NCBI GenBank assembly: GCA_004212795.1
Contig: SHBR01000012.1
Coordinates: forward strand, 1-46,430
Source of the DNA: Candidatus Thioglobus sp.
GTDB lineage: Bacteria > Pseudomonadota > Gammaproteobacteria > Arenicellales > UBA868
DNA length: 46,430 nt
Reading direction: 5' to 3'
The notes under the pieces were generated by a model. The model did no database searches, was not told where the DNA came from, and was given only the letters and a program-made list of their open reading frames with translations. How positions within the stretch are numbered: position 1 is the first letter of the stretch; each line of letters opens with the position of its first letter. Below, piece after piece: positions 38,112-41,736 of the stretch. The position numbers were made by a program, and so were the translations under genes.

Positions 38112-38572
38112 ACCGTTCAGCAACGGCTTCAGGCTTGAGTGCCGGGCGCAAGGATTTTTTTTATTGGCAGTCGATTAGTACCCGCTGGGGAGATAACGAC
38201 ATTTATGGACATGTCAATAATGCCGTTTATTTCACCTATATTGATAGCGTTGTTAACCAGTTTCTGATCGAGAAAAGACTGATTGATATTCAAAACGGTG
38301 ACCTCATTGGCCTTGTCGTGTCATCGCAATGCCAGTTTTTTGCGCCCCTAAATTATCCTGGGCGGGTAGACTGCGGATTGAGAGTTGACCGGATAGGAAA
38401 TTCTAGCGTGACGTACTCGGTGGGCCTATTTGCACACGACAATGATGAAGCAGTAGCGATTGGCGGGTTTACGCATGTTTATGTGAAGCGCGATGATCGT
38501 CGACCTTGTGCTTTGCCTGATGGGTTGAGATCGGCATTGGAAAAATTAGTTTGGATTGAAGGCTGTCAATAG
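38108..38572 (+). CDS. 4-hydroxybenzoyl-CoA thioesterase-type hotdog protein
   Basis: 154-residue acyl-CoA thioesterase of the 4HBT/YbgC type. STRWGDNDIYGHVNNAVYFTYIDSVVN carries the active-site Asp and His-Asn helix. Its start is a TTG overlapping the stop of the YhdH/AcuI-like gene by 4 nt, so translation is coupled. Together the two could act on the same small acyl-CoA pool, for example removing CoA from a reduced or stalled intermediate. Inference from context only. Confidence 0.88.
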   Translation: MNRSATASGLSAGRKDFFYWQSISTRWGDNDIYGHVNNAVYFTYIDSVVNQFLIEKRLIDIQNGDLIGLVVSSQCQFFAPLNYPGRVDCGLRVDRIGNSSVTYSVGLFAHDNDEAVAIGGFTHVYVKRDDRRPCALPDGLRSALEKLVWIEGCQ

Positions 38573-38573
38573 T

Positions 38574-39419
38574 ATGTATCGAAATAATCTATCCGGTGCT
38601 GAATTCTGGACGTCGCCCCATAAAGCGATCACACTTCTCGGAATGTCTGGAGCCGGGAAAACAACACTTGCATCCAGGCTGCCGCAGCGCACTTGGTTTC
38701 ATTATTCTGGCGATTATCGAATTGGTACCCGTTATCTTGGTGAAGCCATCCTCGACAACGCAAAACGGGAGGCGATGAAGTCTCCACTTCTGGCCGAATT
38801 GTTGCGTTCTGACTCTATTTATTTGTGTAACAACATTACGATAAACAATTTGAAACCGCTTTCTGGTTTCTTGGGTATGGTTGGCGACCCGGCGTTGGGT
38901 GGATTAGGGATTGACGAATTTAAGCGTCGACAAGCGCTCCATCGTGATGCAGAGGTTTGTTCGATGCTGGATGTTCGTGAATTTATTGATAAATCTTCAG
39001 AGATTTACGGTTACCCCCATTTTATTAACGATGCGGGAGGGAGTCTTTGCGAGCTTGATGAGCCTGGTGTCTTAGAGCAGCTTGCTGAAGATACGTTGAT
39101 TGTTTATTTAAAACCGTCCGACGAGATGCTCGAAAAAATTATCGAGCGGTCGATGGATGAACCCAAGCCCATGTATTATCGAAGCGAATTCCTTGATCAC
39201 GTGCTTCCGGAGTATTTAGAGGAGTTTAGCTTGTCTCATCCTAATGAGATTGTTCCGAGCGATCTGTTTCGTTGGATTTTCCCTCGATTAGTTAACCATC
39301 GACTCCCCCGCTATGAGCGAATTGCGGAAGAGTTCGGCGTGGTGTTACCCGCAGACCGTATTGACGAGATTCATGGAGAGACTGAACTTATTGAATTAAT
39401 CTGTGAGGCATTGGGATAG
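38574..39419 (+). CDS. P-loop ATPase of unknown function
   Basis: About 281 residues with a clear Walker A, LLGMSGAGKTTLAS, near residue 23, followed by a Pro-Arg turn and ...HYSGDYRIGTRYLGEAI. The residues DTLIVYLKP and a late SLSHPNEIVPSDLFRWIFPRLV are notable. It looks like a kinase/ATPase of the nucleoside-phosphate transfer type, with no closer assignment possible. ATG 38574 follows the thioesterase stop by one base; a TTG at 38556 in the same frame would overlap that gene. It ends 2 nt before the MetA-like gene, suggesting a functional link. Confidence 0.75.
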   Translation: MYRNNLSGAEFWTSPHKAITLLGMSGAGKTTLASRLPQRTWFHYSGDYRIGTRYLGEAILDNAKREAMKSPLLAELLRSDSIYLCNNITINNLKPLSGFLGMVGDPALGGLGIDEFKRRQALHRDAEVCSMLDVREFIDKSSEIYGYPHFINDAGGSLCELDEPGVLEQLAEDTLIVYLKPSDEMLEKIIERSMDEPKPMYYRSEFLDHVLPEYLEEFSLSHPNEIVPSDLFRWIFPRLVNHRLPRYERIAEEFGVVLPADRIDEIHGETELIELICEALG

Positions 39420-39421
39420 AG

Positions 39422-40483
39422 ATGCCGATAGTTGCCAACACGGGGTTACCCAGTTTTGAACGATTTCGCTTGGAAGGGGGCGATGTGCTCTCGCGGGATC
39501 GCGCTGTTTCGCAGGATATTCGAGAGTTACATATTGGATTAATGAATAATATGCCTGACGCAGCGATGGCGGCGACAGAGCGTCAATTTCTCAGGTTAAT
39601 TGGCGGCTGCAATCGGATCGCACAGTTTTATGTTTATCCTTTCTCACCGCCTCAGATTAAAAGAGGAGCTGACGCCAAGCGGCATATTGACAAGTATTAT
39701 TATGATTTTGATCAGCTAAAGCTGGATGGATTAGATGCACTGATTGTGAGCGGTGCAAATCCTGTTTGCGCTGAACTTCCCGACGAGTCGTTTTGGGGGC
39801 CCATGGTGGAGACGTTGGACTGGGCAAATGAACATGTTACATCAACGTTGTGCGCATGCCTGGCAACACATGCCGCGTTTCTCCACCTGCACAAGGTGTC
39901 TCGACGACCGTTATCTGAAAAGCGTTGGGGTGTATTTCCTAATCGCGTCGTAGCTGATCATCCACTGGTTCGAAATATTAATAGCCGCTTTGACGTGCCA
40001 CATTCTAGATGGAATGATATCAGCGCAATTGATATGCGAAGTGTGGGGCAACAGGTGTTGGTCGAAAGCGAAGAGGCTGGCGTGCACTTAGCAACGAGTG
40101 CAGATGGTCTTCGATTAATATTCTTTCAAGGGCATCCTGAGTACGATAACTTCTCACTTCTAAAGGAATACAAGCGAGAGGTAAATCGCTTCCTAGCCGG
40201 TGAGGTCGATCGATATCCACCATTCCCGACGCACTATTTCATGCCTGAAATGATTCCGGTGTTAGATCAGTATCGCGCGGATGCTGAGGAAGCCCGGCGT
40301 CTGGGAATCGACTGTCGGGAATTCCCCGAATCCGATATCCTTGTCGATAACACCTGGGGCGATACCGGGAAAATCGTATTTAACAACTGGCTCGGGACAA
40401 TCTACCAACTCACTAATCCCGACCGGCGAAAACCGTTTATGGATGGAATTGACCCGAAAAATCCACTTGCTCGTATTTTCTGA
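39422..40483 (+). CDS. metA: Homoserine O-acyltransferase, MetA family
   Basis: 353-residue homoserine acyltransferase that activates homoserine for methionine synthesis. The cysteine nucleophile is in TSTLCACLATHAAF, aligned with the E. coli CWAVQAA motif; the His and Glu are in FFQGHPEYDNF. It is longer than E. coli MetA (309) with a C-terminal tail. The position that separates succinyl (Gly) from acetyl (Glu) users in this family is here Val, in SGANPVCAEL, so acyl donor is not predictable. It immediately follows the ATPase gene. Confidence 0.87.
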   Translation: MPIVANTGLPSFERFRLEGGDVLSRDRAVSQDIRELHIGLMNNMPDAAMAATERQFLRLIGGCNRIAQFYVYPFSPPQIKRGADAKRHIDKYYYDFDQLKLDGLDALIVSGANPVCAELPDESFWGPMVETLDWANEHVTSTLCACLATHAAFLHLHKVSRRPLSEKRWGVFPNRVVADHPLVRNINSRFDVPHSRWNDISAIDMRSVGQQVLVESEEAGVHLATSADGLRLIFFQGHPEYDNFSLLKEYKREVNRFLAGEVDRYPPFPTHYFMPEMIPVLDQYRADAEEARRLGIDCREFPESDILVDNTWGDTGKIVFNNWLGTIYQLTNPDRRKPFMDGIDPKNPLARIF

Positions 40484-40524
40484 CGTCTTTGCCCACCTTT
40501 GTAGTGGGAATTTGCCCACGACCT

Positions 40525-40533
40525 TGTTATAAT
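40525..40533 (+). promoter_or_regulatory. Extended -10 promoter of the riboswitch transcript
   Basis: TGTTATAAT is a consensus -10 (TATAAT, 40528-40533) with the extended TGn element. No good -35 hexamer is visible, as is tolerated with extended -10. The predicted start near 40540 coincides with the beginning of the riboswitch P1 stem. Confidence 0.7.
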
Positions 40534-40540
40534 TCTTTTA

Positions 40541-40595
40541 AGCGCCGATTTGATCATCAGCTTGCGGGCGCTATACAAGTTTGCTAAAGCGAGTG
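40541..40595 (+). ncRNA. SAM-II riboswitch aptamer
   Basis: The RNA follows the SAM-II pattern known from alphaproteobacterial metA/metX leaders: P1 strand AGCGCC (40541-40546), conserved GATTTG, then GCTTGC, the closing P1 strand GGCGCT (40567-40572), an A-rich joint and GCTAAAG (40583-40589), which can pair back into the loop (GCTT with AAGC) as a pseudoknot. SAM binding should lower expression of the downstream homocysteine methyltransferase. Confidence 0.85.
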
Positions 40596-40605
40596 GTGAC
40601 TATAG

Positions 40606-40642
40606 AGCCCGCTTTAGCGAAAGCTGACGCGGGTTTTGTTTT
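40606..40642 (+). terminator. SAM-controlled intrinsic terminator
   Basis: CCCGC/GCGGG plus an inner TAGC-GAAA-GCTG stem, then a T-rich run. The left arm CGCTTTAGC (40610-40618) can instead pair with GCTAAAGCG (40583-40591) of the aptamer, forming a 12-bp antiterminator when extended through 40580-40591/40610-40621. The two structures exclude each other. Confidence 0.85.
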
Positions 40643-40692
40643 GCGCAGGCATTTCAATTACCTATTTATCCGAGCGAATAAGGAGATAAGTA

Positions 40693-41736
40693 ATGTCACC
40701 GAGTCGATGGGAAAAGGTTTTGAACGAGCGAGATTGGCTGCTTGCTGATGGTGCGACCGGCACTAATTATTTTGCGATGGGATTACAGTCCGGTGATTCA
40801 CCAGAGCTTTGGAATATCGATCATCCTGATCGAGTCGCTTCTTTGCACCGTCAGTTTGTTGAGTCGGGAGCTGATATTATTTTGACCAATAGCTTTGGAG
40901 GTTCCGCTTACCGGCTTAAGCTTCATCAAGCTGAAAGTAGGGTAAGAGAGCTTAATTATGCAGCGGCTCAGATTGCGCGTGGGATCGCAGATGTTTCGGA
41001 ACGCCAGGTTATTATTGCAGGATCGATTGGACCAACGGGTGAAATTCTTGAACCGATTGGATCGTTGAGTATCGCTGACGCCACTGCGGCGTTCGAGGAG
41101 CAAGCAGCCGCTCTGGTCGACGGAGGTGTAGATATCATCTGGCTTGAAACCATGTCATCTAAGGAGGAGCTTCAGGCGGCAGGGGTGGGTGCTGCGAAAG
41201 CGGAGGCTCCCATCGTGGCGACGATGACATTTGATACCAACGGAAGCACAATGATGGGCGTGCCGCCAGCTCAACTGGTCGATATTTACCACGCAACCGT
41301 GCCGCGACTAGCCGCGTACGGCGCGAATTGTGGCGTTGGCGCAGCAGACCTTATCGGAACAATCTCAGCGATGAGGCGACACTCGAGCCCTCAGGATATT
41401 CTGGTCGCAAAAGGAAATTGCGGGATTCCCCAATTCGTAGACGGTGAAATCAAATACAGTGGTACCCCGGAGTTGATGGCCGAGTATGCGTGTCTTGCTC
41501 GAGATATCGGTGCGCGAATTATTGGCGGGTGTTGCGGCACGACACCAACGCACTTAGCTGCAATGCGGGATGCATTAGTCGCTCATCAAGTGAGAACCCC
41601 GCCCGAGATTGACACCATCGTCGATATCTTGGGGCCGGTTACTGCGGGAACAAGAGCTGTGTGTACGTCGACGGGCAGTCTACCGGAGACAGATGCCAAT
41701 CCTCGCCGAAGCCGTAACAGTCGTCGTCGAAAGTGA
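40693..41736 (+). CDS. Homocysteine S-methyltransferase, betaine-type (BHMT-like)
   Basis: 347-residue zinc enzyme of the homocysteine S-methyltransferase family that makes methionine from homocysteine and a methyl donor. Zinc cysteines lie in YGANCGVGA and GGCCGTTP. N-terminal LLADGATGTNYFAMGL and TNSFGGSAYRLKLH resemble bacterial betaine-homocysteine methyltransferases (BmtA), though S-methylmethionine as donor is possible. AAGGAGAT precedes the ATG. The SAM-II switch upstream fits an enzyme feeding SAM synthesis. Confidence 0.88.
   Translation: MSPSRWEKVLNERDWLLADGATGTNYFAMGLQSGDSPELWNIDHPDRVASLHRQFVESGADIILTNSFGGSAYRLKLHQAESRVRELNYAAAQIARGIADVSERQVIIAGSIGPTGEILEPIGSLSIADATAAFEEQAAALVDGGVDIIWLETMSSKEELQAAGVGAAKAEAPIVATMTFDTNGSTMMGVPPAQLVDIYHATVPRLAAYGANCGVGAADLIGTISAMRRHSSPQDILVAKGNCGIPQFVDGEIKYSGTPELMAEYACLARDIGARIIGGCCGTTPTHLAAMRDALVAHQVRTPPEIDTIVDILGPVTAGTRAVCTSTGSLPETDANPRRSRNSRRRK

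Follow-up and report, generated by a model that had tools for sequence, protein, structure and literature searches.

What controls the betaine–homocysteine S-methyltransferase gene (bhmT) that lies 209 bases downstream of metA, on the same forward strand, in an uncultured marine gammaproteobacterial lineage? The window considered here is the whole 46 430-nt stretch of DNA analyzed; in it, the metA–bhmT gap holds, in this order, an extended −10 element, a SAM-II-like aptamer, an intrinsic terminator and a Shine–Dalgarno sequence (Table 1). The initial annotation, made from the sequence alone, had described this gap as a SAM-II riboswitch with a complete antitermination platform ahead of a betaine-type homocysteine methyltransferase gene, and protein family scores bear out the gene assignment. 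Our reading, to which we give a probability of about 0.92, is that a SAM-II riboswitch with a transcription-terminating platform controls bhmT as an OFF switch; betaine-dependent methionine synthesis in this lineage would then be under predicted SAM feedback.

The gene order, kinase-like gene, metA, bhmT and gshB, was the same in all loci of the family with sufficient flanking sequence. The first of these genes (window positions 38556–39419), present directly upstream of metA in every such locus, codes for a kinase-like P-loop protein of 287 aa that matches no Pfam family; NF040667, a homoserine kinase model, matches its P-loop weakly (22 bits against a cut-off of 197).

Table 1. Features of the metA–bhmT region (positions in the window)
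Feature	Positions	Strand	Basis
metA, homoserine O-succinyltransferase; upstream neighbor, outside the switch	39422–40483	+	NCBIfam NF003776, 452 bits (cut-off 358)
Extended −10 element TGTTATAAT	40525–40533	+	sequence; transcription start expected near 40540
SAM-II aptamer, RF00521 match, model positions 1–79	40532–40608	+	27.5 bits, E 2.4e-4
P1 stem, AGCGCC (40541–40546) with GGCGCU (40567–40572), enclosing loop L1 (GAUUUGAU, CUUGC)	40541–40572	+	RF00521 alignment
GCUAAAGCG, 3′ strand of pseudoknot P2, alternatively 5′ strand of the antiterminator	40583–40591	+	core invariant in 48/48 aligned sequences
Antiterminator hairpin, 12 pairs including one G·U, UUUGCUAAAGCG (40580–40591) with CGCUUUAGCGAA (40610–40621)	40580–40621	+	−16.6 kcal/mol
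Intrinsic terminator: stem, GAAA loop (40619–40622), U-tract UUUUGUUUU (40634–40642)	40602–40642	+	−23.1 kcal/mol
Shine–Dalgarno AAGGAG of bhmT, outside the switch	40680–40685	+	sequence
bhmT-type gene, betaine–homocysteine S-methyltransferase, 347 aa, predicted regulated gene	40693–41736	+	NCBIfam NF005718, 470 bits (cut-off 338); Pfam PF02574

Identity of the aptamer

A search with the Rfam SAM-II model RF00521 (SAM_alpha) had been proposed as a check. When 401 bases (40400–40800) were run through cmscan against 4227 Rfam families, this covariance model did match, though under its gathering score of 36, a curator's threshold that describes no structural feature; because of that threshold a default Rfam scan of the window lists nothing. 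A whole-genome search with RF00521 missed the window site found by the direct scan, and negatives from that search were thus left unused. No match to SAM-V was seen in the same 401 bases up to E 10.

Like other members of RF00521, the window element combines P1 with a pseudoknot P2 and the GAUUUG, CUUGC and GCUAAA core, and stands just after a promoter, at a methionine gene and with a terminator behind it, as many members do; it differs in belonging to a group that mostly scores under the Rfam cut-off. P1 closes a loop carrying GAUUUG and (A/C)UUGC, in the sequence as in the RF00521 alignment. The bases that would form P2 between this loop and the 3′ GCUAAA strand are complementary (C40565–G40583, G40564–C40584, U40563–A40586 and U40562–A40587) and invariant in 48/48 sequences. 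In SAM-II and SAM-V structures (PMC6061858) the counterpart of the GCUAAA strand is paired with UUGC in the loop of P1, a bulged U contacts the adenine of SAM, and a U-A·U triple recognizes its charged sulfur; by our own mapping of these roles onto the window, U40585 would be the base pairing with the adenine of SAM. The long C–G helix P2a, found in about 60% of SAM-II members (PMC6061858), is unconserved in the window's group, where only C40558–G40591 is invariant and U40557–A40592 is common. A long P2a helix UCAUCA/UGGUGA (40554–40559 with 40594–40599) would fit the window, but was rejected as it is restricted to the three closest genomes.

Relatives were collected by searches with the downstream protein and come nearly all from uncultured marine gammaproteobacteria. 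The metA–bhmT element was present at the same place in essentially every related genome examined, dozens in all, with the leader core conserved base for base. Each of 16 sampled loci matched RF00521 or its long-loop relation with 24.6–36.3 bits; the sole one past the cut-off was a sister with the element at the same place, ahead of the same gene (L023, 36.3 bits). As this locus and two metZ-linked ones, among 20 fetched in the class search described below (L128, 39.0 bits; L138, 38.3 bits), pass the threshold, the whole group can be tied to the SAM-II family. Alignment of 48 sequences showed GAUUUG, CAG-(A/C)UUGC and GCUAAA to be invariant or nearly so, a core of 27 bases being conserved at methionine genes; the associated genes of methionine or SAM metabolism are bhmT in the family, and metZ and metK elsewhere. 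From this alignment, which includes the window sequence by construction, a model was derived. Of 109 genomes in the order, 78 contained a match to it, as did 65 of the 398 sampled across the phylum; in the window's own genome (78% complete) only the bhmT leader site was significant.

One could suppose, given the sub-threshold Rfam score, that the resemblance arose by chance, with the hairpin being a metA terminator plus bhmT leader sequence. The 27-base core kept in 48 sequences at methionine genes, and sisters scoring above the cut-off, already refute this explanation, for which we see hardly any room. A SAM-II-like fold with a different ligand, such as S-adenosylhomocysteine (SAH), appears very improbable too: the low score and the divergent relatives with altered core bases that the genus holds would agree with it, but the window copy has all the ligand-site bases that can be named from SAM-V and SAM-II structures, and the U-A·U triple that discriminates SAM from SAH (PMC6061858) is conserved.

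Covariation contributed little. P1 cells were paired in 94.8% of cases (n = 48), with the outer pair changing from A–U to C–G in five sequences; this signal is modest, and a structure slid by +2 performed comparably on some measures. The P2 core pairs never vary in the 48 sequences, so that covariation neither supports nor opposes the pseudoknot pairing. With both results in view, covariation alone would not prove the fold, and the case is one of homology, conservation and context. These confirm, at the level of sequence comparison, that the window element is a real SAM-II-class switch; the identity proposed at the outset is upheld by the RF00521 match along the whole length, by the sisters above the cut-off and by the invariant core in relatives.

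Promoter, antiterminator and terminator

The extended −10 element ends 8 bases upstream of P1. The claim of a readable promoter stands as far as this element goes; a −35 hexamer was not found at 16–18 nt from it, and a consensus promoter scan did not list the site because no −35 lies at the right distance. Relatives from other genera have promoters of the TTGACA-N17 type at the equivalent place.

A palindrome, TGGG-N6-CCCA, is present at 40505–40518 of the window and upstream of bhmT in the sisters. Most genomes of the window's genus have it between −41 and −53 relative to the aptamer core, a place taken by the TTGACA −35 box in the family's other genera; it is possibly the operator of some regulator, or else the end of the metA transcript.

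An intrinsic terminator is present, as had been described; it has a GAAA loop and a U-tract, its stem consists of pairs 40602–40612/40629–40639 plus 40614–40618/40623–40627, and a slightly larger piece had a z-score of −3.9 versus shuffles. The terminator 5′ arm, CGCUUUAGC (40610–40618), is complementary to the aptamer strand GCUAAAGCG at every position, and the 3′ strand of the antiterminator covers both the 5′ arm and the loop of the terminator; the U-tract terminator and the antiterminator built on the aptamer strand are thus mutually exclusive. Stepwise folding gave P1 together with the antiterminator for transcripts ending at 40620–40632, and the terminator from 40636 onward. A point against the reading is that minimum-energy folding without pseudoknots finally favors the terminator, so that antitermination must be kinetic.

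From these parts and from the homology to SAM-II we infer that SAM is the ligand, in which order the RNA folds and which way control runs. RNA polymerase would start near 40540 and transcribe the aptamer first. At low SAM, the free aptamer strand would capture CGCUUUAGC as it emerges, completing the antiterminator by about 40621, before the 3′ arm of the terminator emerges (about 40634), and polymerase would read through into bhmT. At high SAM, the ligand would hold GCUAAA in its pseudoknot with the P1-loop bases CUUGC; the released CGCUUUAGC would close the terminator stem with its partner arm, and transcription would stop at the U-tract. Competition between the hairpins follows the usual order, and binding of SAM should shift the balance to termination. 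This OFF logic, already put forward in the initial annotation, survived the tests of homology and complementarity and stays a prediction from sequence.

Comparison within the family brings further evidence. The motif CGCUYUAGC in the terminator 5′ arm was kept in 28 of 28 family sequences, at 25–28 nt from GCUAAAGCG, while the 3′ arm varied (GCUGA, GCCGG, GCCAG, GCUGG, GCUAA); a 5′ arm that is fixed while its partner varies indicates a constraint beyond terminator pairing. The suggested double use of the aptamer strand, in the pseudoknot and in the antiterminator, is well supported by this conservation and by the complementarity of the arms. The quality of the platform is nevertheless uneven across the family. 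The perfect match of CGCUUUAGC to GCUAAAGCG was seen in the window and its near-identical sisters, and the remaining 26 of 28 sequences have CGCUCUAGC, with one A·C mismatch; the C to U change in the window's clade accompanies a U–A pair in the terminator stem; in several sisters this pair is C–G. The 12-bp antiterminator that had been noted is thus present in the window, but its perfect form is peculiar to a small clade. The U-tract was kept in 25 of 28 family sequences; in three genomes of one sister genus (L029, L031 and L032) the aptamer and the hairpin precede bhmT with the U-tract lost, and here control may have shifted to translation, or decayed.

These three genomes, keeping the aptamer without the U-tract, also bear on another explanation, that a real SAM-II aptamer exerts mainly translational or promoter-based control, with the terminator being a constitutive attenuator that yields a short RNA. 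Sinorhizobium meliloti metA does have a terminator behind a translation-regulating SAM-II (PMC9373788), and in most of the window's genus the TGGG-N6-CCCA palindrome overlaps the promoter region. On the other hand, the Shine–Dalgarno sequence lies about 40 bases 3′ of the terminator, with no partner noticed in the aptamer, and what conservation preserves in the terminator arm is its complementarity to the aptamer strand. We consider this explanation unlikely, and prefer control by transcription termination.

Two other comparisons were set aside. A pairing of the aptamer loop CAGCUUGC with AAGCUGA of the terminator was dropped, as sisters differ there (GCCGG, GCCAG). Longest-run complementarity with G·U scored equal to G–C was uninformative, because U-tracts yield long G·U runs, and the conserved arms were instead compared directly.

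Known counterparts and the family RF02424

The 2005 description of SAM-II (Corbino et al. 2005, PMC1273637) already had many members followed by terminators and P1 directly preceded by a near-consensus promoter; by 2009 the class had been recorded in beta- and gammaproteobacteria (PMC2704228). The view that it often acts on translation needs correcting, as the majority of SAM-II switches are stated to be transcriptional in a structural study (PMC6061858). Nor is a terminator-coupled SAM-II at bhmT anything special: a terminator follows SAM-II in all 120 of the original SAM-II/SAM-V tandems (PMC9481103), and such a tandem stands ahead of bhmT in Pelagibacter (PMC11508383; also PMC2704228). The window shares with the Pelagibacter tandem the succession of SAM-II and terminator ahead of a betaine–homocysteine methyltransferase gene; it differs in having no SAM-V match, and Pelagibacter is an alphaproteobacterium. 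A Pelagibacter-like genome (G653) has a SAM-II terminator with the identical pair of GCUAAAGCG and CGCUUUAGC, but before a metF-like gene rather than bhmT. The experimentally studied SAM-II of S. meliloti metZ resembles the window element in its predicted transcription termination upon SAM binding (PMC9373788) and differs from it in gene and bacterial class. Both mechanism and gene association are already known, and the window is a further example.

The reverse strand of the window element weakly matches RF02424, 'Burkholderia sRNA Bp2_Cand287' (Bp2_287). When the class was searched with RF02424, SAM-II aptamers came up on the opposite strand, most of them with terminators, and mostly ahead of metZ, some ahead of metK. 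In the best RF02424 member found (L168, positions 1425–1601; 157 bits, cut-off 70), the RF02424 match is on the forward strand, and SAM-II and metZ are on the reverse; a purF-like gene lies upstream and the opposite-strand metZ-like gene downstream, with the SAM-II core and the terminator legible on that strand. While its reverse strand thus carries the same aptamer and terminator as the window, RF02424 is filed in Rfam as an opposite-strand sRNA gene, and its joining region carries an additional insert, GGGGCAACCC. Its discovery used RT-PCR with oligo(dT) priming, a procedure that, going by its description, does not tell the strands apart, and the discovery paper itself suggested a cis-acting role in methionine metabolism (PMC3521395). 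Judging by these sequences, RF02424 is very probably the SAM-II riboswitch of metZ with its terminator, entered on the wrong strand; this likely error is a concrete correction for the database.

We did not adopt an equation of this branch with the betaproteobacterial 'metXZ element' of Leyn et al. That element, the consensus of which is given only in a figure, is placed ahead of metX in most betaproteobacteria (PMC4239095), and the SAM-II element in a Burkholderia-type genome precedes metZ, not metX, which is why the two were kept apart.

It is probable that there exists a large beta- and gammaproteobacterial branch of SAM-II, at bhmT, metZ and metK, whose members stay below the cut-off and therefore mostly go unlisted in Rfam, and part of which is filed as the antisense-strand 'sRNA' RF02424. 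Its members would share one platform, with the terminator arm being the complement of the ligand-binding strand; some in the window's genus have a mutated core (CUUAC/GUUAAA, GGUUU) and perhaps a changed ligand or affinity. Standard Rfam annotation hides a sizeable set of SAM-II switches.

At four loci (L124, L132, L135 and L136) a SAM-II-like aptamer stands before metK, and an SAH riboswitch (RF01057, 52–69 bits) follows about 1.3 kb on, after metK.

Second sites and divergent copies

In several genomes of the window's genus (loci L181, L182, L193 and L195) a metZ-like gene is preceded by another SAM-II-like site, likewise with a terminator. The terminator arm at these sites (CGCUCUGG, CGCUUCAG) fits the aptamer strand worse than at bhmT.

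Divergent SAM-II-like copies were also observed in sister genomes, in L191 (about 1575–1650), L192 (reverse strand, about 1964–2027), L194 (reverse strand) and L197–L200. Within the order, a strict pattern of the divergent core picked out 3 genomes out of 109, each from the window's genus; a looser one had no match in 369 genomes sampled from the class. The core of these copies is changed to GGUUUA, CUUAC and GUUAAA; the shift from CUUGC/GCUAAA to CUUAC/GUUAAA is compensatory, a G–C core pair being replaced by A–U. A changed ligand or affinity is possible. Two of the divergent copies stand in tandem behind a terminator-bearing SAM-II, ahead of AAA ATPase-like and rhodanese-like genes.
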